Assembly (NCBI RefSeq): GCF_003703835.1
Contig: NZ_RDQR01000002.1
Coordinates: forward strand, 62,001 to 126,000
Length of the DNA: 64,000 nucleotides
Source of the DNA: Auritidibacter ignavus
GTDB taxonomy: Bacteria; Actinomycetota; Actinomycetes; Actinomycetales; Micrococcaceae
Reading direction: 5' to 3'
Shown: positions 14,196-32,697 of the stretch, in pieces
How positions within the stretch are numbered: the stretch's first letter is position 1
How the letters are laid out: each line of letters opens with the position of its first letter
The notes under the pieces: generated by a model
What the model was told of the DNA's origin: nothing
Databases searched by the model: none
The model's input: only the letters and a program-made list of their open reading frames with translations
Program-made: the position numbers and the translations under genes

Positions 14196-14882
14196 TCAGT
14201 GCCGCACCGGATGTGCCTGGGTGTAGTCGAAGAGGTCCTCAAAGATTGCTTGGTTGAACTGAAACCCGCGCCGGGTCTCGTCGATAAAAGCCTCGCGGTC
14301 CTGCTGATCCAGCTTGAGGGCATCCAGGCTGGCACGGTAGTGATCCTTATAGACCTTCGGTTTTGGGATGGCGGCGAAGGTATACATGTGTAGTTGATCG
14401 TCACGAGCCTGATAGTGCCGACGGACCAGCGAGGCGATGGCCAACCCGCCGGATAAATCGCCCAGGTATCGCAAGTAATGGTGAGCCGCGAGTCGGACCG
14501 GATCATCGCAGACCCGAACAATCCGGGCCACATAATCGGTGGTCGCTGTCATAGCAGCCGGCGCGTCCCAGTCAGTCAGTGGCAACAAGGACTCCAGATC
14601 TGCTGCCAAGGCATCGCGTCGATCTAGGTTCGGATCGAACAGGGCCCGGAACGCTTCGTTGCCCGCGGATTCCCGGCATGCCTCTACCGCGGTATCCAGG
14701 GCGCCATAGATGTAAAAGTACTGACACACCAGCAGTGCGTAGTCGCGCAATGAGCGTTTTCCTGACATTAGCTCGGTGATGAACGCCGAATTTTCTGCCT
14801 GCGAGTGGTCCTCGCGAGTCAGCTGGCGGACTCTGGTGGAGAGCACATCGTCAGCAGATGTCGTCGCGGCGTGGATGTCCAT
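14196..14882 (-). CDS. hmuO: Biliverdin-producing haem oxygenase
   Basis: ATG 14882 (MDIHAATTSA) is preferred over ATG 14903 because AAAGAGG lies about 8 bp upstream; the product is 228 residues. Haem oxygenase features are TREDHSQAENS, with the proximal haem-ligand His at about 26, YFYIYGALD, the distal-helix glycines in YLGDLSGGLAI, and FNQAIFEDL near the end. It opens haem to biliverdin, CO and Fe2+, releasing iron from haem taken up by the importer at 22717-31839. Convergent with the siderophore reductase. A candidate iron box is 38 bp upstream. The symbol follows the corynebacterial usage. Confidence 0.9.
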   Translation of the reverse strand: MDIHAATTSADDVLSTRVRQLTREDHSQAENSAFITELMSGKRSLRDYALLVCQYFYIYGALDTAVEACRESAGNEAFRALFDPNLDRRDALAADLESLLPLTDWDAPAAMTATTDYVARIVRVCDDPVRLAAHHYLRYLGDLSGGLAIASLVRRHYQARDDQLHMYTFAAIPKPKVYKDHYRASLDALKLDQQDREAFIDETRRGFQFNQAIFEDLFDYTQAHPVRH

Positions 14883-22632: not shown

Positions 22633-22651
22633 ATAGGTGAGGCTAAGCTTG
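22633..22651 (+). promoter_or_regulatory. Candidate DtxR/IdeR iron box of the haem-uptake locus
   Basis: ATAGGTGAGGCTAAGCTTG matches the IdeR consensus TTAGGTTAGGCTAACCTAA at 14 of 19 positions by hand count. It begins 12 bp after the -10, a classic repressor position, 66 bp before the hmuT start. Confidence 0.65.
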
Positions 22652-22716: not shown

Positions 22717-23868
22717 GTGCAGACCGTCCAACGCGCACCGAGAACATCACGCAGTGGCCAGCGCGCCACACTGGCAGCCCTGCTAGCCACCCTGCTGTTT
22801 GTTATCACCGGTTGTGGCGGACAGGCTAGTGGCACCGTTGATGTTGGCCAGGCCCTGGACAACGCCCAGTTCATCGACAACCCCAAGGATTACGAAGGCC
22901 CCACCACCGCGCATTTGGCCAATTCGGCGATCGACCCGATCGCCACCAACCCGCAATCCCAGTTGCCGGTTACCGTCACCGACGCCCAAGGCACTCAAGT
23001 CACCGTGACCGATACCTCCCGGATTCTGGCGGTGGACCTCTACGGCACCGCCTCCCGGACCGTCTATGAGCTCGGCCTCGGCGATCATGTGGTTGGCCGC
23101 GATATCTCTTCGGGTTTTGCCGAGATCGCCGAAAAACCGTTGGTAACCGAAAACGGGCACGATCTCAACGCCGAAGCCATCCTCGAGCTGGCTCCGACCG
23201 TGATCATCACCGACACCTCCCTCGGACCCTGGGACGTGATGTTGCAGATGCGCGATGCCGGTATTCCGGTGGTTGCTATCGACTCCAAGCGCGATGTCGA
23301 CACCGTTGACGAACTCACCATGCAGATCGCCGAAGCCCTGGGCGTACCCGAAGAAGGCCAAAAGCTCGCCGAACGCATCCAGGCCGACACCGAGGAGATG
23401 CTGGCAGAAATCCAGCAGTACGTGCCCGAATCCGACGACGAGAAGTTACGCATGATGTTCCTTTACGTCCGTGGCCAGGCCGGGGTCTACTACATCTTCG
23501 GGCCCGGCTCCGGCACCGATTCGTTGATCAAAGGTGTCGGTGGGATCGATGTGGCCGATGAGATCGGCTGGGAGGGCATGATGCCGATGACCGACGAAGC
23601 GATCGTGGAAGCCCAACCCGATCTAGTGCTGATGATGACCAAGGGGCTCGAATCGGTCGACGGAGTCGACGGGTTAATGACTGCCGTGCCCGCTCTCGCG
23701 CACACTCCCGCCGGCAAAAAGCGCCGGATTGTCGACATGTCCGACTACGAAGTGCTCTCCTTTGGCCCCAATACCGCCGGCATCCTCGAGGCGCTCGCCG
23801 TGGCCATCTACGCACCCGACCCCGCAGGTACCTCCACCGACGAATCTGGTACCTCCACCGAAGAGTAG
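22717..23868 (+). CDS. hmuT: Haem ABC transporter substrate-binding lipoprotein
   Basis: A 383-residue lipoprotein. GTG 22717 follows AAGAGG. The signal has an Arg-rich start, a hydrophobic segment and lipobox ITGC (Cys about 32). The mature part has a PF01497-type periplasmic-binding fold: DTSRILAVDLYGTASRTVYELGLGDHVVGRD, ILELAPTVIITDTSLGPWD, PVVAIDSKRDVDTVDELTMQIAEALG. An extra ~90-residue N-terminal region (DNAQFIDNPKDYEGP...) precedes the fold. It hands haem from the cell-surface HtaA proteins to HmuUV. First gene of the locus behind the iron box. Confidence 0.88.
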   Translation: MQTVQRAPRTSRSGQRATLAALLATLLFVITGCGGQASGTVDVGQALDNAQFIDNPKDYEGPTTAHLANSAIDPIATNPQSQLPVTVTDAQGTQVTVTDTSRILAVDLYGTASRTVYELGLGDHVVGRDISSGFAEIAEKPLVTENGHDLNAEAILELAPTVIITDTSLGPWDVMLQMRDAGIPVVAIDSKRDVDTVDELTMQIAEALGVPEEGQKLAERIQADTEEMLAEIQQYVPESDDEKLRMMFLYVRGQAGVYYIFGPGSGTDSLIKGVGGIDVADEIGWEGMMPMTDEAIVEAQPDLVLMMTKGLESVDGVDGLMTAVPALAHTPAGKKRRIVDMSDYEVLSFGPNTAGILEALAVAIYAPDPAGTSTDESGTSTEE

Positions 23869-23877
23869 AGCCTGCCC

Positions 23878-25041
23878 ATGAAGACCCCGACGACCCCGGC
23901 TACTCCGGCAATTCCGCTGTACTTCGCCCCGCATCAGACCGTGGGCGATAACGTCGACACCGGCCTGCTCAACTCCGCTGCCACCCGCACAGTGTTGCAG
24001 AGCCAGTCCCACGGACGCGCCCGCTGGCTTTTCGTGGTGCTCACGGCCTTGTTCATCGTCCTGATCCTGGTCTCAGCCGGGATCGGTCAGATGCAGATCG
24101 CACCGCTAGAAGTCATCTCCTCGGTGCTTCGCGGGATCGGGATCGACACCGGCATCGAATCCGAGCACACCTACTACGAAGCCGCCCTATGGGATGTGCG
24201 CTTCCCGCGGGTGGCACTCGCGGTGATCGTCGGCGCTGGATTGGCCACCGGCGGGGTACTGATGCAGGGCGTGTTCGGCAACCCCCTGGCCGAACCCGGC
24301 ATCGTCGGGGTCTCCGCCGGTGCGGCTGCCTTCGCCTCGGTGGTTATCGCCCTGGGCCTGAGTGTCTTCGGTGCCTGGACTTTGGTGTGTGGCGCCTTCA
24401 TCGGCGGGCTACTCGCCACCACCCTGGTGTATCTCACCGCCCGCAAAAACGGTCGGACCGAAGTAGTCACCCTGATCCTCACCGGCGTTGCGGTCAACGC
24501 GGTGGCCGGAGCCCTCACCGCGGTGATGACCTTCATCGGCGACACCTCCGCCCGCGAAGAAATCGTCTTCTGGCAACTGGGTTCGCTGAATGGCACGCGC
24601 TGGCAAGACGTCTCCGTCGCCGCACCGGTGATGCTGATTGGTATTGGTCTCTGCCTGTTCTACACCCGCCAGCTTGACCTTTTGGCCCTGGGTGAACGCC
24701 AGGCCCGCCACCTGGGAGTCGATGTGGAATCGCTACGCCGACAGATCATCATTCTCGTGGCAGTCATCACCTCCGCGGCTGTTGCCTTCTCCGGCATCAT
24801 TGCCTTCGTGGGCCTGGTGGTACCCCACATCATCCGCATGATCGTCGGCCCTGGCCACCGCGTGCTGCTCCCCGCCTCGATCATCGGGGGAGCGGTGCTC
24901 CTGCTGGCAGCCGATTCTGCTGCGCGCACGATCATTCCCTACGCGGATCTACCGATCGGAATTCTGACCGCCCTGGCCGGTGGACCGTTCTTCTTCTACT
25001 TGATTCGTCGCACCCGACGTGGCGCCGGGGGGTGGAACTAA
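23878..25041 (+). CDS. hmuU: Haem ABC transporter permease (FecCD family)
   Basis: A 387-residue FecCD/BtuC-type permease with about ten helices after a ~50-residue cytosolic N-terminus. Markers are WDVRFPRVALAVIVGAGLATGGVLMQGVFGNPLAEPGIVGVSAGAA, and the ATPase-coupling region FSGIIAFVGLVVPHIIRMIVGPGHR. Ten bp after hmuT; its TAA stop overlaps the ATG of hmuV by one base, so the two are translationally coupled. Confidence 0.92.
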   Translation: MKTPTTPATPAIPLYFAPHQTVGDNVDTGLLNSAATRTVLQSQSHGRARWLFVVLTALFIVLILVSAGIGQMQIAPLEVISSVLRGIGIDTGIESEHTYYEAALWDVRFPRVALAVIVGAGLATGGVLMQGVFGNPLAEPGIVGVSAGAAAFASVVIALGLSVFGAWTLVCGAFIGGLLATTLVYLTARKNGRTEVVTLILTGVAVNAVAGALTAVMTFIGDTSAREEIVFWQLGSLNGTRWQDVSVAAPVMLIGIGLCLFYTRQLDLLALGERQARHLGVDVESLRRQIIILVAVITSAAVAFSGIIAFVGLVVPHIIRMIVGPGHRVLLPASIIGGAVLLLAADSAARTIIPYADLPIGILTALAGGPFFFYLIRRTRRGAGGWN

Positions 25042-25946
25042 TGACCCACACTGCTCACGGTGCCCCCATCCGGAACTCCCGGCCCAACCATCGCGCCCCG
25101 GTGCTGGTTGCCGACAACGTGTCCGTGACGATCGGGGAGCAGTACCTGATTGACCACCTGGACTTGGAGGTCTACCCCGGTGAAGTCGTCGCACTAGTCG
25201 GTCCCAACGGTGCCGGAAAATCGACGTTCTTGGCCACGCTCACTGGCGATACCACCCCGAGCGCCGGCACCGTGACGCTCTACGGAACCGAGCTGTCCGA
25301 GCTGCGCCCCGCCCAGATGGCCCGATTGCGCGCGGTGCAACTCCAAGAAAATCGGGTCGCCTTTGCCTTTACTGCCAGTGAGGTCGTGCGATTGGGTCGA
25401 GCCGCCTGGGCCGGCACCGGTGAAGAAGCCCGTGACGATGCCGTGGTCTACGAGGTCATGCACGCCACCGAGGTCACCCCACTGGCCCAGCGCGCCTATC
25501 CGCAACTGTCTGGAGGCGAGAAAGCTCGCACCACCTTCGCCCGCACCCTGGCCCAAGAGACTCGGATGCTGCTCCTTGACGAGCCCACCGCCGCGATGGA
25601 TATCCGCCACCAAGAACACGTGCTGCGCCACGTCCGCCAGCGCGCGAACGCCGGAGCAGCCGTGGTGGTGGTCATTCACGATCTGTCGGTGGCCGCAGCC
25701 TACGCCGACCGGATCATGATGATCAGCAATGGTCGCCACATCCGCACCGGAACCCCGAAGCAGGTGCTGACCGCACAGCTGATCACCGAGGTCTACGGTC
25801 ATCCGGTCGATGTGTTGCAACACCCCACCAACGGGGAGCTGATCATCGCCCCGGTCCGTGACCGCCCCCGACGCTCAGCACTATCACCCACACCATCACC
25901 TACGACATCTGGAAGTTGCATTCATGAAAACTCATTGTTTCACTGA
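25041..25946 (+). CDS. hmuV: Haem ABC transporter ATP-binding protein
   Basis: A 301-residue ABC ATPase. ATG 25041 overlaps the hmuU stop. Walker A GPNGAGKST (about residues 54-62), Q-loop LQENRVAF, signature LSGGEKARTTFAR, Walker B LLLDEPTAAMD and switch His in VVIHDLSVAAAYADR are intact. It powers haem import with HmuU. The C-terminal ~25 residues are Arg/Pro/Ser-rich. The gene's end overlaps the start of the next gene by 23 bp. Confidence 0.93.
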   Translation: MTHTAHGAPIRNSRPNHRAPVLVADNVSVTIGEQYLIDHLDLEVYPGEVVALVGPNGAGKSTFLATLTGDTTPSAGTVTLYGTELSELRPAQMARLRAVQLQENRVAFAFTASEVVRLGRAAWAGTGEEARDDAVVYEVMHATEVTPLAQRAYPQLSGGEKARTTFARTLAQETRMLLLDEPTAAMDIRHQEHVLRHVRQRANAGAAVVVVIHDLSVAAAYADRIMMISNGRHIRTGTPKQVLTAQLITEVYGHPVDVLQHPTNGELIIAPVRDRPRRSALSPTPSPTTSGSCIHENSLFH

Positions 25947-27480
25947 ATCTCGCACGCTGGCCCACGCTGGGCGTACCGTGCGTACTAGCCTGCCGGCTCA
26001 CCTGCTGGCGGGCCTGCTCGCTGTGGTCATCGCTGTGGCCTGCCTGGCTGGAGTCATCGGCCACCAGCTACTGACAGCCTCCAGTGCCTCTGCCGCCCCG
26101 CAGGTGGCGATCTCCGGACTGGACGGCCAAGCCAAGGTGCGCGCTAGTGGCATCACCGATATCACCGTCAGTGGCCGGGGCTTCCAGTCACTGCAGGGCG
26201 GGTTCGGCGGCATCTACGTGGCCTTCGGCTGGGTGGATGATCCCCGCGGTGGTTCGTGGAAACCCTCTCAGGGTGGAAAGACCGGCGTGAACTACATGTA
26301 CGTCCCCGATACCGAGGCCAAGGATAATAACGGCTACCTGCGCTTTGTGACCTTCCCCGGCTCATCCACCGCTTCGGCCGCTAACGGCGGAACCCTGGCC
26401 GCCGACGGGACGTGGAAGCTCACCATGCGTACCCCGGGCGCGAAGTTCAACGCCGTGGACCGTCAGGGCAACCAAAAAACCGTGGACTGCACCAAAGTCA
26501 CCTGTGGGATCATCACCATCGGCGCCCACGGCGTGCACAACCCGTCCAATGAATCCTTCACTCCGGTCGAGATCGTCGGTGCTGCCGGCGACACCGTCTC
26601 GGTGAGTGTCGATGACTCCGCTGCAGCCGCCAACCGCAGTGCTGCGGGTCACCACACTGGCGGTGGCGGCCAGGCCGGAACCGTGGAGAACCCTCAGCAG
26701 GCCGCCGTCGATGCGGCTGCGGCTGATCTGGCCAACGGACAGCCAGCTGAACAGGATGAGGCCGGCGACTCCGCCGGCGCTGTAGACGCCGGACAGGCAG
26801 AAGAACTGACCGACAACACCGCTGAGGCCAACGCCGCCTTTGCCACCGTCGGGCTACAACAAGAGGCCATCCAGGCCGGTCACGTGCTGGGCTTCACCGG
26901 GCAAGGTTTCCAACCGGGCGAGCAAGTGGTCGTCACCCTGGGCGATGGTTCTTCTGGAGCCGGCCCGTTGACCGCCGGTGCAACAGGAGAAGTAGCCGGA
27001 GCGATCCCGATCCCCGACGATGCCAGTCCGGGCACCCACACGCTACGACTCACCGGCGCCTCCTCGGAACAAACCGTTGAAGCCCAATTCACGGTCGCGG
27101 CCAACGCCACCGCGACCTCGGCCGAGAACTCCAGCTGGTGGTCCCCGGCCTTCATCACGGTCTTGTGTCTGGCCGCGGCCATCCTGATCTTTGTCATCGT
27201 CTGCGTCATCGTCTCGCTCCTCAAGCGTCGCCGGGCCCGAGCAACTGTCTCCGAGCAGCCTGACCAGTCTGACCCATACGACGAATACGACCAGCAGGAC
27301 GATGTCGATCCAGAACCCGAACTGGAGGAATATGATGACGCCACCCAGATGACCGAGGAGATCTCGGCCAGCCACGACCCTTACGCCACCGTGCCAGCCG
27401 CCTCGCCAGCAACGGCACCGGCTGAGCGCCTCTCGGGCGGTGGACGCCACCGCCACCTCAGCTCCTCGGACCGGTGGTGA
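25924..27480 (+). CDS. Membrane-anchored surface protein of the haem locus, neocarzinostatin-like domain
   Basis: ATG 25924 gives 518 residues. An N-terminal signal segment (about 20-58, ending SASAAPQ) leads to a beta-rich domain (about 57-220) with WKPSQGGKTGVNYMYVP and two Cys in KTVDCTKVTCGIITIGAHG, resembling the disulfide loop of neocarzinostatin-type or HtaA-locus proteins. An Ala/Gln-rich linker, a second beta domain (GHVLGFTGQGFQPGEQVVVTL, about 313-397), one transmembrane helix (about 404-430) and an acidic cytosolic tail with DPYDEYDQQDDVDPEPELEEYDD follow. I do not recognise a catalytic role. Its place between HmuV and the HtaA proteins suggests haem capture or scaffolding. Confidence 0.75.
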   Translation: MKTHCFTESRTLAHAGRTVRTSLPAHLLAGLLAVVIAVACLAGVIGHQLLTASSASAAPQVAISGLDGQAKVRASGITDITVSGRGFQSLQGGFGGIYVAFGWVDDPRGGSWKPSQGGKTGVNYMYVPDTEAKDNNGYLRFVTFPGSSTASAANGGTLAADGTWKLTMRTPGAKFNAVDRQGNQKTVDCTKVTCGIITIGAHGVHNPSNESFTPVEIVGAAGDTVSVSVDDSAAAANRSAAGHHTGGGGQAGTVENPQQAAVDAAAADLANGQPAEQDEAGDSAGAVDAGQAEELTDNTAEANAAFATVGLQQEAIQAGHVLGFTGQGFQPGEQVVVTLGDGSSGAGPLTAGATGEVAGAIPIPDDASPGTHTLRLTGASSEQTVEAQFTVAANATATSAENSSWWSPAFITVLCLAAAILIFVIVCVIVSLLKRRRARATVSEQPDQSDPYDEYDQQDDVDPEPELEEYDDATQMTEEISASHDPYATVPAASPATAPAERLSGGGRHRHLSSSDRW

Positions 27481-27483
27481 GCC

Positions 27484-29049
27484 ATGGCTAACACCACCCC
27501 AACCCGGCAAGCCGCTCGGCGCTGTCTGCGCAGACTCGGCGCACCACGACGCGCGTCGGCAGTGACTGCATTGTTGACGGCACTGCTGTTGGTCCTAACC
27601 GCATTGCTCAGCGTCCCGCTGGCCGCCAGCCCCGCCATCGCCTCACTCGATGACTCATCGGACGCCCAGGGGTCCTCACGTCGCCAGGTCGATATTGGCG
27701 TCGAGATTCCCGAGGGCCTCAACGCCCGGGTCACTCCCGACCAACAAGGCAATTTCACCATCGACAACGCCCAGTTCCGGTGGGGGATCAACGTCGAATC
27801 CAACGCCGGGGCCTTCTTCGGCGGCTGCAATTGGCTGCAAGCCGGAAAGGCCGGCAACTGGGGCCGGTCCGAGGTCTGGAGCAACGACAGGTTGTTCAAG
27901 GTCAAAGAGGGCAATGTCCGGATCGAAAAACGGCTCGGCGCCACACAGTGGACCACCCCCACCTGGCAGAACAAATGCCAGGATCTCACCGGTTCGACAC
28001 CCCGCACGGTGCTGACCAACCCCGCAGAAACCGGCACCCAGGCCGAAGTCGTGATCGATGGTGGTCAAGGCCACTACGATGCGACCACCGATACTCTCCG
28101 GATCAAGTGGAAGGGGAGCTTTACGGTGGTGTTCTACGGCGGGATGACCTACTGGTGGGCCACCGACCCGGTGCTAGAGCTCACCAACGGCAAAGGCACG
28201 CTCACCGCGGACCTGGGTGGGTACGGCGCGGACATGTACGACCTGTCCAAATGGACGGTGCTGGAAACCCACAAAAAGGTGCCCATGGCCACCATCAACT
28301 CCGTGTCAATGAAAACCGACCCACAGACCAAACAACTCAACGGGTTGACCACCACCCCTCGCTACCGCGGGGTGAAAGTTGATGTTGCCGCGGTGGGTCC
28401 CTCCAACCCGCAAAACCGCAACGAACCCAACTGGGGTTCTTTCCCCCAACAGTTCGTGGACTTCCAGGTCCTGACCGGTCAAGCCGGCTACTGGTACACC
28501 ACAGGTGGGCTGCGTGACCCGGCCAAACCCCCGACTCCGATCACTGTCTCCTTCGACGCCACCCGCCCGATCTCGTCCGGCAGCGCCACCGAGGTCCCCC
28601 CACAGCTGACGGAACCCAGTGAGGCGACCCAGCCGCCCGCGCCCCAGGCACCGTTGCAGACCGTCAGGAACCCGGCCGGTAGCGCTCGGGTCCCCTCAGC
28701 CGGCTGGGCCTCTCCCACCGGGCCCTCGACCACCGCCAGTTACGAACCGCTGGATCTCAGTGCGCTGCTGGCCGCCATGGGTCACCCGGCCGCGCCAGAA
28801 GCCACTGGACTCGCCGATGCCAACGCGGCCGCTCAAGCCGCCGAGGAAGCCAAAACTTCCTACGGGCAGCCCGTAGCCGCCCAAGACATTGACTGGCTGG
28901 GAGGCAACTTGATCCCCGACGACGTCGCGCAATTCCTCCAGGATCACCGCGAAGCCTTCCTGTGGGCGCTGGCCGGACTGCTGGTGATCGGCGCCGGCAC
29001 CGGTCTAGCCTTCTGGCGCGGCTGGCTCGTACTGCCCTGGAAAAACTGA
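27484..29049 (+). CDS. HtaA-domain haem-binding surface protein, membrane-anchored
   Basis: A 521-residue protein with a Sec signal (about 22-57), one HtaA domain (about 90-350), a Pro/Ala-rich linker and a C-terminal transmembrane helix (about 492-515) with a short basic end. HtaA core: FTIDNAQFRWGINVESNAGAFFGG, FTVVFYGGMTYWW, LTNGKGTLTADLGGYGADMYDLSKWT, and QAGYWYTTGGLRDP. In corynebacteria, HtaA domains take haem from haemoglobin using a Tyr ligand and pass it to HmuT; here it would sit on the outer face of the membrane. Three bp after the preceding gene. Confidence 0.85.
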   Translation: MANTTPTRQAARRCLRRLGAPRRASAVTALLTALLLVLTALLSVPLAASPAIASLDDSSDAQGSSRRQVDIGVEIPEGLNARVTPDQQGNFTIDNAQFRWGINVESNAGAFFGGCNWLQAGKAGNWGRSEVWSNDRLFKVKEGNVRIEKRLGATQWTTPTWQNKCQDLTGSTPRTVLTNPAETGTQAEVVIDGGQGHYDATTDTLRIKWKGSFTVVFYGGMTYWWATDPVLELTNGKGTLTADLGGYGADMYDLSKWTVLETHKKVPMATINSVSMKTDPQTKQLNGLTTTPRYRGVKVDVAAVGPSNPQNRNEPNWGSFPQQFVDFQVLTGQAGYWYTTGGLRDPAKPPTPITVSFDATRPISSGSATEVPPQLTEPSEATQPPAPQAPLQTVRNPAGSARVPSAGWASPTGPSTTASYEPLDLSALLAAMGHPAAPEATGLADANAAAQAAEEAKTSYGQPVAAQDIDWLGGNLIPDDVAQFLQDHREAFLWALAGLLVIGAGTGLAFWRGWLVLPWKN

Positions 29050-29126: not shown

Positions 29127-30671
29127 ATGCAGAACAAGATCACACGCCTGTTGGGCGGTGTCGCCGGTATCGCGCTATTGGCCGGTGGCCTGACCGCCAC
29201 CGACGCCAACGCCGATCAGAACCTCCCGGTCAGCGACGTGCAGTTTAGCTGGGCCGTCAACGAAGAAGCCGGTGGCGGTGCCTTCTTCGGTGGCGCCAAC
29301 TGGCTGGTGGCCGGCGAGGTCGGCAATGTGCACGGCGATCAGAACCGCGGTGCCACCGTCTGGGATGAAAAGAAGGACGCCAAGTACTTCACGAATCGCG
29401 ACGGCAACGTCACCATCACCCGCCCGGATGCCCAGGGAAACCAGGTGCCAGCCACCTGGGCGGCCCGGAATTTTGAATCCATCACCGCCGATGGTGAGCC
29501 TGCCGGAAACCGTTTGAAAACAGCCCCGGGCTCCTCTTCCTGGAATCAGGCTAATATTGCCGCCGGTTCCGGCACCGTTGATCCCGAAGGCGAGAACGCC
29601 GAGATCTCCTGGGACGGTTCCTTCACCACCGTGTTCTACGGCGGGATGACCTACTGGAGCATCAACGATCCGAAGCTGACCGTCACCAACGGCAAGGGCG
29701 AACTGACCGCGACCCTGACCGGTTACGGCGCTGATATGTACGACCTGTCCAAGTGGGTCAAGCTCGATCCGATGCACAATGCCACCGTGGCCACCTTCTC
29801 CGATGTCGACGTGACCGAGACCGGGATCGAGATCAAGCCCGATTACCTGGGCGTTGCGGTTGAGGTTGAAGCCAACGGCCCCTCCAACCCGCAGAAGCGG
29901 GAGGGCAAACACTGGGGTTCCTTCCCCCAGGATACAGTGGACTTCAACGTCGGCACTGGCCAGGCCGGGTACTGGTATTCCACCGGCGGCCAGGTCGACC
30001 CCAAGAAACCGGCCGCCCCGATCTCGGTGTCCTACCCCAAGGTGGAAGCCCCGGCCCAGCCGACCCCCGAGCATGAAGATTGCACCACCGCCGGGGCAGC
30101 TGACGGTGAGAACACCGAATGTGTCGATACCGATGTGACCATCCCCGATGCTGATCAGAACCAACCTGGCCCTGGCAACCCCGGCGGACCCGATGAAGGT
30201 CCCGGCGATGGTGACGGTGATGACACCCCCACCGGCGCGTTCAAGTTGACCATCGAGAAGAACCAGACCTCCCTGGGCCAGGGTGAAGTGGATCAGGCTG
30301 GTGGGGTGGTGGCCTCCGGCCGCCTGCCCGAGGCCACCGTGCTCGATACCCGCTCGAACTCTCAGGGCTGGAACGTGACCGGACAGGCCTCGGCCTTCCA
30401 GAACGCCGCGGGAACCGAATCCTTCGGCGCAGCCGCCCTGGGCTGGGTGCCGCGGGTGACCCAAACCGGTCAGACAGCACGAGCCGGTGCCGAGGTGAAG
30501 CCCAATGTGGAGAACGGTTTGGCCGCCAACCGCACGCTGGCTACCGCCACCGGCGCTACCGGTGAAAAGACCACCCTGGGTGCGGAACTGAACCTCAACG
30601 TGTTGCAACAGAATATCCCCTCCGGTGGGAACTACCGCTCGGTGCTGACCGTGACCGCCATCGCGAAGTAG
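29127..30671 (+). CDS. HtaA-domain protein with C-terminal WxL-like domain
   Basis: ATG 29127 is preceded by AAGGAG; 514 residues. Signal peptide (1-31, ending DANADQ), HtaA domain (about 33-297; FTTVFYGGMTYWS, LTATLTGYGADMYDLSKWV), a Pro/Gly/Asp linker with two Cys (DCTTAG, TECVD), then a beta domain (about 370-514) with VLDTRSNSQGWNVTGQASAF, SFGAAALGWVPRV, LGAELNLNV and GGNYRSVLTVTA. That order (D.R....GW.V.......F ... G.Y...LT.T.) resembles the WxL wall-binding domain of low-GC Gram-positives. Unlike its neighbours it has neither a transmembrane helix nor a sortase signal, so the WxL-like domain is the likely attachment device; the next gene codes a DUF916 protein. Confidence 0.82.
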   Translation: MQNKITRLLGGVAGIALLAGGLTATDANADQNLPVSDVQFSWAVNEEAGGGAFFGGANWLVAGEVGNVHGDQNRGATVWDEKKDAKYFTNRDGNVTITRPDAQGNQVPATWAARNFESITADGEPAGNRLKTAPGSSSWNQANIAAGSGTVDPEGENAEISWDGSFTTVFYGGMTYWSINDPKLTVTNGKGELTATLTGYGADMYDLSKWVKLDPMHNATVATFSDVDVTETGIEIKPDYLGVAVEVEANGPSNPQKREGKHWGSFPQDTVDFNVGTGQAGYWYSTGGQVDPKKPAAPISVSYPKVEAPAQPTPEHEDCTTAGAADGENTECVDTDVTIPDADQNQPGPGNPGGPDEGPGDGDGDDTPTGAFKLTIEKNQTSLGQGEVDQAGGVVASGRLPEATVLDTRSNSQGWNVTGQASAFQNAAGTESFGAAALGWVPRVTQTGQTARAGAEVKPNVENGLAANRTLATATGATGEKTTLGAELNLNVLQQNIPSGGNYRSVLTVTAIAK

Positions 30672-30698
30672 CCCAGCAGAGTATTACACCACCCGACA

Positions 30699-30758
30699 GC
30701 CTCGGTGAGGTGTTGTGCCCCACGGGGTCGCACCTCACCGAGGCCTCGGATCCTTTTT
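30699..30758 (+). terminator. Terminator or attenuator inside the haem locus
   Basis: A perfect 14-bp stem GCCTCGGTGAGGTG (30699-30712) with CACCTCACCGAGGC (30731-30744), then CTCGGATCC and T5 (30754-30758). It sits between the HtaA-WxL and DUF916 genes and would lower expression of the last two genes relative to the upstream ones. Confidence 0.7.
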
Positions 30759-30774
30759 CACCACCCGGAGCACC

Positions 30775-31839
30775 ATGACCACCCGCCTGACTGTCCCCGC
30801 AGCCGTGATCACCACCCTGTTATCAGCCCTGCTGTGCTTGATCCCGTACACCCCCACCGTTGCCACCGCTGCCACGCCTGAAACCCCAGCCTCGGCTGAG
30901 ATCCCTGCTACCGACCAGAGCCTTTCCCCGGATCAGACCGAGACCTGGGGGATCGCCCCGGCAGATAACGACTACGGCACCGGTCGCAGCTCGTTTGCCT
31001 ACCAGGTCTCTGCCGGTGAGACCATCGAAGACCAGATGGTCGTGGTCAATTACGGCGCCGAAGAGCTCACCCTCAACACCACCATCGCCGATGCCGAAAC
31101 TTCCGTGGATGGCACACTGTCCCTGAAAGAACCCGGCCAAGAGCCCACCGGCCTGGAAATCTGGGGCACCGTGGAGACCGAGTCCATCACCGTCGCCCCC
31201 GGCGAATCCAAGACCGTGGCCTTCACGATCGAGGTCCCCGCTGATGCCACACCCGGAGACCACCTGGGCGGAGTGGTCACCTCCCGGCTCTCGGAAGGCG
31301 ACGGCCAGGTCGCAGTCAACCACCGGCTGGCCTCCCAAATCAGGATCACCGTCGACGGCGAGGTCATCCCGGCGCTGGAGATCAACGAGATCAGCATTGT
31401 CGACGCCCCGGTGGCCTGGATACCCTTCGCACCTGTGGAAGCCACTGTGCGGTATGAAGTCACCAATACCGGCAATGCGCTCACCCGGATCAACCCCGAC
31501 AACTCGGTCTGGCTGGGCGCCGTCCATGAATCCGATGCCACCGATCAAGACTCCAGTACCGTGCTGGAACTGATGCCCTCCGGCACCGGGATCGTGGAAG
31601 AACGAGCCACCATCTGGCCGATCGGCTACCATCACGCCACCGTCAAGCTCACCCCAGAAGCCGTCTCGGGTGCCCTGGGCGAACCCGTTGAAGCCAACGG
31701 ATCCGGGATCATCATCCCGTGGGGTACCCTGGTGGTGCTTCTCGTCGTGAGCGGAGGGATTATTGCCTACGTGGTGATCACCCGCCGACGCCACACCCAG
31801 CAAGCCGATCCAGCCAAGCCTCAGTCACCCCGCCAGTAA
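30775..31839 (+). CDS. DUF916 (WxL-interacting type) membrane protein
   Basis: ATG 30775 follows GGAG; 354 residues. Signal peptide (1-31), a DUF916/WxLIP-like beta domain (about 60-190: GRSSFAYQVSAGETIEDQMVVVNYGAEELTLNTTI, SITVAPGESKTVAFTIEVPADATPGDHLGGV), a second Ig-like domain (about 200-310) and a C-terminal helix (about 317-337) with basic tail. In Firmicutes DUF916 proteins bind peptidoglycan and WxL-domain partners. The preceding gene ends in a WxL-like domain, so these two are a plausible pair. Confidence 0.8.
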   Translation: MTTRLTVPAAVITTLLSALLCLIPYTPTVATAATPETPASAEIPATDQSLSPDQTETWGIAPADNDYGTGRSSFAYQVSAGETIEDQMVVVNYGAEELTLNTTIADAETSVDGTLSLKEPGQEPTGLEIWGTVETESITVAPGESKTVAFTIEVPADATPGDHLGGVVTSRLSEGDGQVAVNHRLASQIRITVDGEVIPALEINEISIVDAPVAWIPFAPVEATVRYEVTNTGNALTRINPDNSVWLGAVHESDATDQDSSTVLELMPSGTGIVEERATIWPIGYHHATVKLTPEAVSGALGEPVEANGSGIIIPWGTLVVLLVVSGGIIAYVVITRRRHTQQADPAKPQSPRQ

Positions 31840-31851
31840 GGACTCCACCGT

Positions 31852-32697
31852 ATGGCCTCTTCCCAGCGTTCAACCACCGTGCGGGATCTGCTCTTCGGAT
31901 CCCTCGCGGTGCTGATTCTGCTGATCATCGTGGCCTTCGGTGTGCTGGCTTTCCGCCCCGATTGGGCCACGAAACTCGGCATCGGCCCCACCACCGGCCA
32001 GGATCGGGTCGCGGAGATGACCGACGCTGACAAAGCCCAGGCTTCGGCAACCATCGCCCCGATGGCCGCCGTCGATGCCCCGGATGCCGAGTCCACCGCT
32101 CGCGATGCGACTCAGACACCAGACAAGATTGACCCCGACTGGCTACACGCCGTCTCCGAGGCCACCGGGATCCCGCCCCGGGCCCTGTCGGCCTATGCCA
32201 GCGCCGATCGACGGGTCCGCGAGGAACAACAGTGCGCGGTCGGCTGGAACACCCTGGCCGGCATTGGCTGGATCGAGTCCCAGCACGGCACCCTGCAGGG
32301 TGGCTCGGTGGCCGACGATGGCCGCGTCACCCCCAAGATCTACGGCGTCCCCCTGGACGGCACTGGCCATACCGCTCACGTCCCCGACACCGACGGGGGA
32401 GAACTCGATCAAAACGAGGTGTACGATCGCGCTGTCGGCCCGATGCAGTTCATCCCCGAGACCTGGGCCCGTTGGGGTGCGGACGGTTCGGGCGACGGCG
32501 TGGCCGACCCTCATCAGATCGATGATGCCGCCTATACCGCCGCCCGCTATCTGTGTCACTCTCGCGCCGGGCTCGAAGGCTCTCAAGAGTGGATCGCAGC
32601 GATCCGGTCCTACAACAATTCGGTGCACTACCAAGCCGACGTGGCCGCCACCGCCGAACGGTACAGGGTAGCAGCCGCCGAGATCACCGCCAGCTAG
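31852..32697 (+). CDS. Lytic murein transglycosylase (MltB/SLT_2-like)
   Basis: A 281-residue protein; AAGGA lies 8 bp before ATG 31852. One N-terminal helix (about 12-36) anchors it outside. The catalytic domain has LAGIGWIESQHGTLQGG with the general-acid Glu (about 142), the family motif YDRAVGPMQFIPETWARWG, GVADPHQIDDAAYTAARYLC, and YNNSVHYQADVAATAERY. It cleaves the MurNAc-GlcNAc bond non-hydrolytically. Twelve bp after the DUF916 gene; a job in opening the wall for the haem-binding assembly is inferred from position. Confidence 0.85.
   Translation: MASSQRSTTVRDLLFGSLAVLILLIIVAFGVLAFRPDWATKLGIGPTTGQDRVAEMTDADKAQASATIAPMAAVDAPDAESTARDATQTPDKIDPDWLHAVSEATGIPPRALSAYASADRRVREEQQCAVGWNTLAGIGWIESQHGTLQGGSVADDGRVTPKIYGVPLDGTGHTAHVPDTDGGELDQNEVYDRAVGPMQFIPETWARWGADGSGDGVADPHQIDDAAYTAARYLCHSRAGLEGSQEWIAAIRSYNNSVHYQADVAATAERYRVAAAEITAS

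Follow-up and report, generated by a model that had tools for sequence, protein, structure and literature searches.

An HtaA-like protein with a WxL-like tail lies beside a WxLIP-type protein in the hmu operon of Auritidibacter ignavus

Genes and features of the locus

We analysed a stretch of 64,000 nt from Auritidibacter ignavus (contig NZ_RDQR01000002.1; hereafter the window), in which a run of co-directional haem-uptake genes leads into two genes whose products, P0001 and P0002, are the subject of this paper (Table 1). P0001 joins an HtaA-like domain to a C-terminal domain remotely homologous to the WxL domains of Firmicutes, and P0002 is a DUF916 protein of the WxLIP type. An anchor principle, a capture fold and a transporter that are each known are thus joined in a combination that we did not find reported, with a diverged anchor. 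The coordinates and gene calls that an initial annotation had given for the two proteins proved correct on re-check, and the ATG of P0001 is preceded by a good ribosome-binding site (AAGGAGAG). The genes hmuT, hmuU, hmuV and the two that follow them all lie upstream of P0001 on the same strand, and throughout the run neighbouring genes overlap or are at most 12 bp apart, except for gaps of 77 bp 5′ of P0001 and 103 bp 5′ of P0002.

P0001 consists of a signal peptide, the HtaA-like domain (about residues 29-310), a linker rich in Gly, Pro and Asp, and the C-terminal domain. Inspection by eye bore out the initial annotation in that the signal peptide is present and a terminal helix and an LPXTG-like motif are absent. 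When the whole protein was scanned, no Pfam or NCBIfam family matched. Its AlphaFold model, made from an alignment of 63 rows, has a mean predicted local distance difference test score (pLDDT) of 85.5 and a predicted template modelling score (pTM) of 0.62.

Table 1. Features of the P0001/P0002 locus and its surroundings (positions in the window).
Feature	Position	Strand	Basis
P0001, HtaA-like and WxL-like candidate display protein	29127..30671	+	514 residues
WxL-like domain of P0001, residues 370-514	30234..30668	+	D407, R409, W415, LGW440xP, Y..LTVT; hhalign and motif counts
14-bp perfect inverted repeat, 18-base loop	30699..30744	+	between WxL-like and DUF916 genes; 0/100 shuffles as long
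P0002, WxLIP-type: DUF916, second immunoglobulin (Ig)-like domain, C-terminal helix	30775..31839	+	PF06030; model compared with 9i1y_A, 9i25_C
DtxR/IdeR-like box	22633..22651	+	65 bp 5′ of hmuT; 15/19 matches
HmuT, haem-binding lipoprotein	22717..23868	+	PF01497; CgHmuT 5az3, E 1.4e-68
HmuU permease	23878..25041	+	FecCD PF01032, 315 bits
HmuV ATPase	25032..25946	+	NF010068 haem ATP-binding cassette (ABC) ATPase, 300.8 bits, equivalog cut-off 261
Operon protein of an unnamed family, secreted, C-terminal transmembrane stretch (by eye)	25924..27480	+	homologues adjoin hmuV
Membrane-anchored HtaA-like protein	27484..29049	+	PF04213 21.1 bits, cut-off 24; C-terminal hydrophobic stretch from sequence
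Haem oxygenase (HmuO-type)	14235..14843	-	PF01126 147.7 bits, cut-off 23; 8 kb from operon

The C-terminal domain and its relation to WxL

The residue pattern from which a WxL domain had been proposed for the C-terminus of P0001 was found (D407-x-R409, W415-N-V and G-x-Y...LTVT), and WxL was the sole Pfam match of this domain when it was scanned alone (PF13731, E 0.0074). Comparison in hhalign of a profile of 30 WxL-like sequences with WxL proteins from enterococci (five sequences) gave an end-to-end alignment of 129 columns (probability 95.6, E 1.3e-8), against a probability of 0.8 for a control in which the HtaA-like profile was compared with the same set. As in Firmicute WxL domains, there is an Asp at W-8, an Arg at W-6, a W-x-hydrophobic step and a Y...T pair. 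Among 44 WxL-like domains the Asp was present in 44, the Arg in 43, and the central position held Trp in 37 and Phe in 7; W+2 was Leu in 15, Val in 15, Ile in 11 and another residue in 3, the protein of the window having W-x-V. The second WxL motif retains its Tyr in 43 and its Thr in 42 of these domains, and an added signature, LGWxP, keeps its Trp in 43 and its Pro in 43.

Several results tell against a WxL domain proper. The PF13731 score of the P0001 domain, 16.7 bits, is below the 25-bit cut-off, and the Trp of the second motif (LTWxL) is found in 0/44 WxL-like domains. The WxL-like profile matched one WxL protein alone weakly (probability 34.2), and with part of the WxL crystal-structure chain 9i25_A the probability was 3.6, D-x-R...W and Y...T lining up in both of these weak comparisons. 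Foldseek and VIA searches with the P0001 model had no WxL chain among the matches listed for the C-terminal domain, the best of which, with a Z of 8.0 that borders on values expected by chance, were pilin domains of fimbriae. PF13731 was matched at E 0.01 or better by 9/30 members of the WxL-like alignment (best 7.6e-6), and a whole-genome search with it at E 0.001 gave matches in 0/19 genomes, including that of A. ignavus, which is the only one of those 19 in which the WxL-like domain is known.

Passages of two papers define the WxL domain by two motifs (PMC9772566, PMC5817068). On the profile and motif evidence, the tail of P0001 is a remotely homologous sister form of WxL and is not a member under this two-motif definition. 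The WxL claim of the initial annotation was therefore upheld as homology between profiles, and not as membership of the family or as a match in the structure search.

The DUF916 partner

P0002 has 354 residues, with a signal peptide, two β-domains and a single C-terminal helix, and its description as a DUF916 protein with a membrane anchor stands: PF06030 matched with 49.5 bits (E 5.4e-13) against a cut-off of 27.3, and the model (pLDDT 86.1) has a helix at residues 316-343 that is hydrophobic in sequence. PF06030 was also matched at E 0.01 or better by 35 of the 39 members of our DUF916 alignment, P0002 among them, and the profile of this alignment found EfmWxLIP1 in the PDB (E 2.6e-7). The P0002 model aligned with the Enterococcus faecium WxLIP chains 9i1y_A and 9i25_C at Z 17.9, with a root-mean-square deviation (rmsd) of 5.2 over 244 residues spanning positions 55-318; fimbrial chaperones were among the next structural matches, at Z about 11.9. 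For the second domain, DUF3324 was matched by 0/39 alignment members (Pfam, E 0.01), yet the structural alignment of P0002 with the E. faecium WxLIP covers the two domains of the latter.

The title of PDB entry 9i25 describes a WxLIP bound to a long WxL, and a literature search found no paper describing this entry. A strand of WxLIP has been proposed to complete the WxL sandwich, and the DUF916 domain is thought to bind the cell wall as well, according to parts of PMC10599100; Firmicute WxL domains attach to peptidoglycan non-covalently, as a passage of PMC5817068 has it.

Co-occurrence of the pair among relatives

We surveyed 198 genomes of the order, A. ignavus counted, and the statistics that follow are over related, non-independent genomes. 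The WxL-like profile matched in 50 of them, spanning 23 of 73 genera, and the DUF916 profile in 51 at E < 1e-40 (75 at E 0.001). DUF916 is present in every one of the 50 genomes that have the WxL-like domain; DUF916 alone occurs in 1 and neither in 147. The pairing extends to gene order. At 138 listed WxL-like places, DUF916 follows on the same strand at no more than 1.5 kb in 98 and is found within 10 kb in 118, and a WxL-like domain lies directly upstream at 98 of the 111 DUF916 places with E < 1e-40. These counts omit weaker DUF916 rows; of the 75 genomes matched at E 0.001, 24 have no DUF916 match other than such rows.

Because both profiles were built from loci found via the C-terminal domain of P0001, they lean towards paired genes, and we therefore checked 75 genomes of the order independently with PF06030. 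It scored above its cut-off in 19 of them, all 19 carrying the WxL-like domain, and it missed two WxL-like genomes (G159 and G165). The pairing of the WxL-like domain with DUF916 exceeds chance. Across the phylum the WxL-like profile matched in 30/396 genomes, part of these being weak matches; the genome of A. ignavus has a single one.

For closer comparison we took the window and 39 WxL-like loci from 34 genomes (labelled L), which are the best-scoring places and not a random draw. DUF916 is adjacent in 38 of these 40 loci; L076 stops at a contig edge and L049 has none within the slice. Fifteen open reading frames (ORFs) in this set carry both the HtaA-like and the WxL-like domain, and the gene of L078 is broken by a stop. 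HtaA-bearing loci (the window and L007 included) show homologues of HmuT, HmuU or HmuV at E < 1e-40 in 19 of 20 cases, those of L007 being on the other strand; the locus without hmu genes, L067, begins at a contig end. HmuT and HmuU were found in 0/21 slices of WxL-like loci that have no HtaA-like domain, where some other ABC ATPases are weakly HmuV-like.

The HtaA-like domain itself was found in 27/198 genomes of the order and 2/396 of the phylum, A. ignavus being in both counts, at 61 listed places. It is fused to the WxL-like domain or stands immediately before it in 17 genomes. HtaA-like domains occur without any WxL-like match in G124, G173, G186, G251 and G291, all of one genus, and in G201, and these genomes must therefore use another anchor.

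Cargo carried on the same tail

In four loci (L050, L075, L077 and L081), all of them in hmu operons, the WxL-like gene bears a PF04213 domain above the cut-off (71.1 bits in L075 and 58.2 bits in L081) and has no HtaA-like match. All four proteins have the axial-Tyr motif WGxxxSFxxY; the FxGH helper pattern is unmatched in them, FPSH or FPTH being seen there by eye. No other single finding supports a putative haem role of the fusion as well as this canonical HtaA on the WxL-like tail.

Ten other WxL-like proteins were scanned, and they gave a purple acid phosphatase (L043, L053), GH53 (L045), an esterase (L049), GDPD (L070), the canonical HtaA of L075 and L081, and no further domain in L047, L059 and L073. 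Two proteins of named species, each encoded directly before an annotated DUF916 gene, also have a WxL-like domain: it spans residues 533-646 (E 1e-21) in a RICIN-domain protein of Streptomyces goshikiensis and 71-209 (E 1e-32) in a small Cellulosimicrobium protaetiae protein annotated as hypothetical. By its predicted cargo, the WxL-like/DUF916 pair is a general display device with varied cargo; a haem-specific pair was ruled out because relatives carry phosphatase, GH53, esterase and GDPD domains on it. A 2025 study notes, in part of its text, that DUF916 and metallophosphatases neighbour an actinobacterial metal protein (PMC12537917).

The phosphatases of L043 and L053, with their WxL-like tails and DUF916 neighbours, suggest phosphate scavenging via the same socket. 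L059 and also L060-L062 represent a second kind of WxL-like/DUF916 cluster, of which L059 was scanned; it lies beside a PstB-like ATPase, a weakly PstS-like gene and a weakly class-E-sortase-like protein. A reading of L059-L062 as metal-ABC loci was dropped, the ATPase of L059 scoring as phosphate PstB, 0.4 bits below the cut-off.

The HtaA-like domain of P0001

The N-terminal part of P0001 and the protein encoded just upstream of it (27484-29049) are 44% identical over 279 columns. With PF04213 the P0001 domain scored 23.2 bits, below the 24-bit cut-off, and 7/22 members of the HtaA-like alignment matched this family at E 0.01 or better. In structure searches, ten CR entries are among the matches listed for the P0001 model, at Z 15.8 to 10.2 (the rows at 8.0 or lower concern the other domain), with the haemoglobin receptor HbpA of Corynebacterium diphtheriae nearest (9bcj; Z 15.8, rmsd 2.9, 174 residues, 17% identity over the aligned part) and CgHtaA at Z 13.5 (6jsa; rmsd 2.7, 159 residues). 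HbpA also supplied the only PDB profile match up to E 1 (chain 9bch, E 0.016). Because of these Z scores, the assignment of an HtaA/CR fold to the modelled N-terminal domain is sound, and this half of the claim of a haem-binding HtaA domain held good.

The other half, haem binding, did not fare so well. A passage of PMC12494546 sets out what the axial Tyr, the conserved Ser and the His do in CR domains, which also gives Tyr as the helper residue of ChtA. As a canonical reference we aligned 19 of 25 fetched PF04213 loci from the order (six on the other strand were omitted), in which three residues never vary (19/19): the Ser of helix 1, the axial Tyr and the helper His. Counting over 35 of 38 HtaA-like domains, partial ones having been dropped, we found that the axial Tyr is absent from every one (no Tyr at W+9 or W+10) and that the helper His is Tyr in every one (Tyr171 in P0001), in a register read off an hhalign alignment of probability 92.8. 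Both losses count against a haem-binding role, and by known chemistry the HtaA-like module may not be a haem binder. Position W+11 is Tyr in 17 domains, Phe in 16, including both copies in the window, and His in 2; Ser at W+6 is present in 21/35, P0001 having Ala. Tyr176 and the last Tyr of a YWY motif are invariant (35/35). That P0001 may bind haem is inferred from the operon context and not from residues, because P0001 lacks both the axial Tyr and the helper His.

A pair of Cys residues is also typical of these domains, the first Cys being present in 33/35, including those of L075 and L077. In P0001 and in its closest relative, in the Brevibacterium locus L007 (3124-3942), both Cys are gone, and the disulphide may have been lost in these two.

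The hairpin between the two genes

The inverted repeat between the P0001 and P0002 genes has counterparts in relatives. Searching the 110 bases after each WxL-like stop codon, with loops of up to 26 bases and one mismatch allowed, we found stems of at least 11 pairs in 27 of 39 WxL-DUF916 pairs and none in 12; in 23 of the gaps at most 1/100 shuffles equalled the stem. The same rule applied to three controls gave 1/39 at the end of the WxL-like gene, 1/36 upstream of the WxL-like ORF and 6/39 after DUF916. Among 14 gaps that were folded, the hairpin sequences are unlike each other. A first count (loops of at most 12, stems of at least 10) had given 11/39 gaps against 0/39 for a coding control; it missed the hairpin of the window because the loop has 18 bases, and a simple terminator scan did not list it because only loops of 3-8 were counted. 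The hairpin is probably an attenuator or a 3′ stabiliser that keeps the display protein above the anchor in amount.

Proposed mechanism and alternative explanations

We think it likely that P0001 serves a haem-uptake operon as its surface capture protein, with the WxL-like tail held at the wall together with the WxLIP P0002 and haem relayed to HmuTUV. The CR-fold domain would be the capture module and the WxL-like domain the anchor at the wall, completed or stabilised by membrane-anchored P0002, a β-strand of which may insert into it as has been proposed for the Firmicute pair. The displayed module would pass haem, or iron-porphyrin from a haem protein, to the membrane HtaA-like protein (27484), from which haem would go to HmuT and then to HmuUV, and the haem oxygenase would free the iron. 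The hairpin would probably allow the display protein to be produced in excess of its anchor. The Isd/NEAT haem relay of Firmicutes follows a similar logic, from a wall-displayed module to a membrane module, a binding protein and a permease, but differs in its unrelated folds and in anchoring by sortase. The initial annotation had supposed that a WxL-type system displays a haem-binding module: what stands is a WxL/WxLIP-type pair with an HtaA-fold module by hmuTUV, conserved across genera, whereas haem binding and WxL in the strict sense do not.

The proposal has to accommodate some awkward counts: DUF916 does not directly follow 40/138 WxL-like matches, 6 genomes with an HtaA-like domain lack any WxL-like match, and the full-length HmuT homologue of L071 has Asn in place of the ligand His. 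It must also be set beside a receptor role, in which the HtaA-like domain would not bind haem and would act as a haem-protein receptor like HbpA, HmuT taking up the haem released. We regard this as unlikely, even though HbpA is the nearest structural neighbour (Z 15.8 against 13.5 for CgHtaA) and the sole PDB profile match, and neither the axial Tyr nor the helper His is present; the lead of about 2 in Z is small, and the invariant Tyr171, Tyr176 and last Tyr of YWY could build a new haem site. A different ligand, such as a siderophore or a corrinoid, would suit the non-canonical pocket and the matches of HmuU to BtuC and siderophore permeases, which are under their cut-offs. This is highly improbable in our view given the haem signature of the transporter: HmuT of the window, aligned to 5az3, retains GHxLNAE (His) and FLYxRG (Tyr/Arg), hence both of the axial haem ligands, which are named in part of PMC4926363; among its homologues, the window included, the Tyr motif is present in 15/15 and the His motif in 11/15, the misses being L071 and three cut by the slice end (L068, L069 and L074); HmuV is above its haem cut-off; and sister operons have a canonical HtaA.

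The manner of retention may likewise be read in other ways. The WxL-like domain could be held by the WxLIP alone, through strand exchange of the pilin-chaperone kind and without binding peptidoglycan, and the likeness of P0002 to fimbrial chaperones, which ranks after WxLIP, and of the WxL-like domain to pilin domains, which is hardly above what chance gives, would fit such an exchange. We hold this to be rather unlikely, since Firmicute WxL domains do bind peptidoglycan (a passage of PMC5817068) and wall binding has been suggested for the DUF916 domain too (part of PMC10599100). That P0001 is a freely secreted haemophore whose tail serves another purpose would agree with its lack of a helix or sortase signal and with the partial secretion of corynebacterial HtaA and ChtA mentioned in a passage of PMC12494546. 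Such a role is very unlikely when the tail co-occurs with a membrane-anchored WxLIP in 50/50 genomes, lies adjacent to it, and is found on enzymes of very different activity.

Beyond wall display of P0001 itself, a broader proposal can be put forward tentatively, although as a whole we find it somewhat doubtful: Actinomycetota would have a WxL display of their own, with a one-motif LGWxP tail that a strand-donating membrane WxLIP completes and that serves as a general socket for nutrient capture. In haem operons the relay from wall to membrane would use CR-fold modules that bind haem, or extract it from haem proteins, via two invariant β6-β7 Tyr residues in place of the canonical axial Tyr, and the hairpin would set the display excess. 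If this is true, the phylum has its own WxL-type display, most of which the WxL model of Pfam fails to detect.

Comparison with known systems and implications

The arrangement resembles the WxL/WxLIP clusters (csc, elr) of Lactobacillales and Bacillales in its C-terminal WxL-type domain, varied cargo and adjacent DUF916 membrane protein. Unlike those clusters, it lacks the Trp of the second motif, has LGWxP added and a DUF3324 region that Pfam does not recognise, comes with one WxL-like match in its own genome and carries nutrient-capture cargo in the scanned loci. With the corynebacterial HtaA/ChtA/HmuTUV system it shares an operon that combines hmuTUV with CR-fold modules, a membrane-anchored HtaA-like protein and a genomic haem oxygenase; it differs in its helix-less CR-fold protein with a WxL-like tail and a WxLIP, and in the lost axial Tyr and helper His. 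The likeness of the P0001 domain to HbpA, its nearest solved fold, is of predicted fold alone, with low identity and a different anchor.

In the parts of PMC9772566 that we cite, 938 WxL sequences are over 91% from Firmicutes, and WxL display is described mainly from that phylum. A literature search, with subscription papers mostly outside its scope, found no paper joining HtaA with WxL or DUF916, and among the matches listed none reported a WxL/DUF916 system in Actinobacteria by title or start of abstract. WxL display is known largely as a host-adhesion device, and here it appears on haem-capture, phosphatase and glycosidase cargo; the arrangement recurs in relatives and points to an overlooked wall display of nutrient-capture proteins in actinobacteria. 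Such display would account for capture proteins of these bacteria that lack sortase signals and yet are held at the wall, where they serve transporters. Two questions also become testable: how a WxLIP serves the WxL protein that it partners, and whether a CR-fold domain can function when it has no axial Tyr. With a profile that includes the LGWxP signature, annotation would pick out many unnamed surface proteins.

Other observations at the locus

The DtxR/IdeR-like box would place the operon under iron control. It is the top site in a scan of the + strand of the 64 kb with a consensus sequence, and its 15 matches were reached by 1/20 random sequences of the same size; a strict search of the window allowing at most 3 mismatches gave no match. 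The start of the 25924 gene was picked by eye inside the ORF 25858-27480. Homologues of its product sit beside hmuV in HtaA loci, with E as low as 9.9e-99, and in L072 and L079 the same ORF carries two HtaA-like domains.

A lytic transglycosylase gene (31852-32697) follows 12 bp 3′ of P0002, with 32.2 bits for PF13406 against a cut-off of 24.3; it has no homologue in the other fetched slices (phmmer, E 1e-4). Plasmids searched with P0001 (tblastn) gave no match, and a search of contigs found a single relative, in a Brevibacterium metagenome-assembled genome, its gene running into the contig edge. Elsewhere in the genome of A. ignavus (contig C33), positions 9765-11334 of L063 hold HtaA-like gene fragments spread over several frames with an internal stop, apparently a decayed copy.

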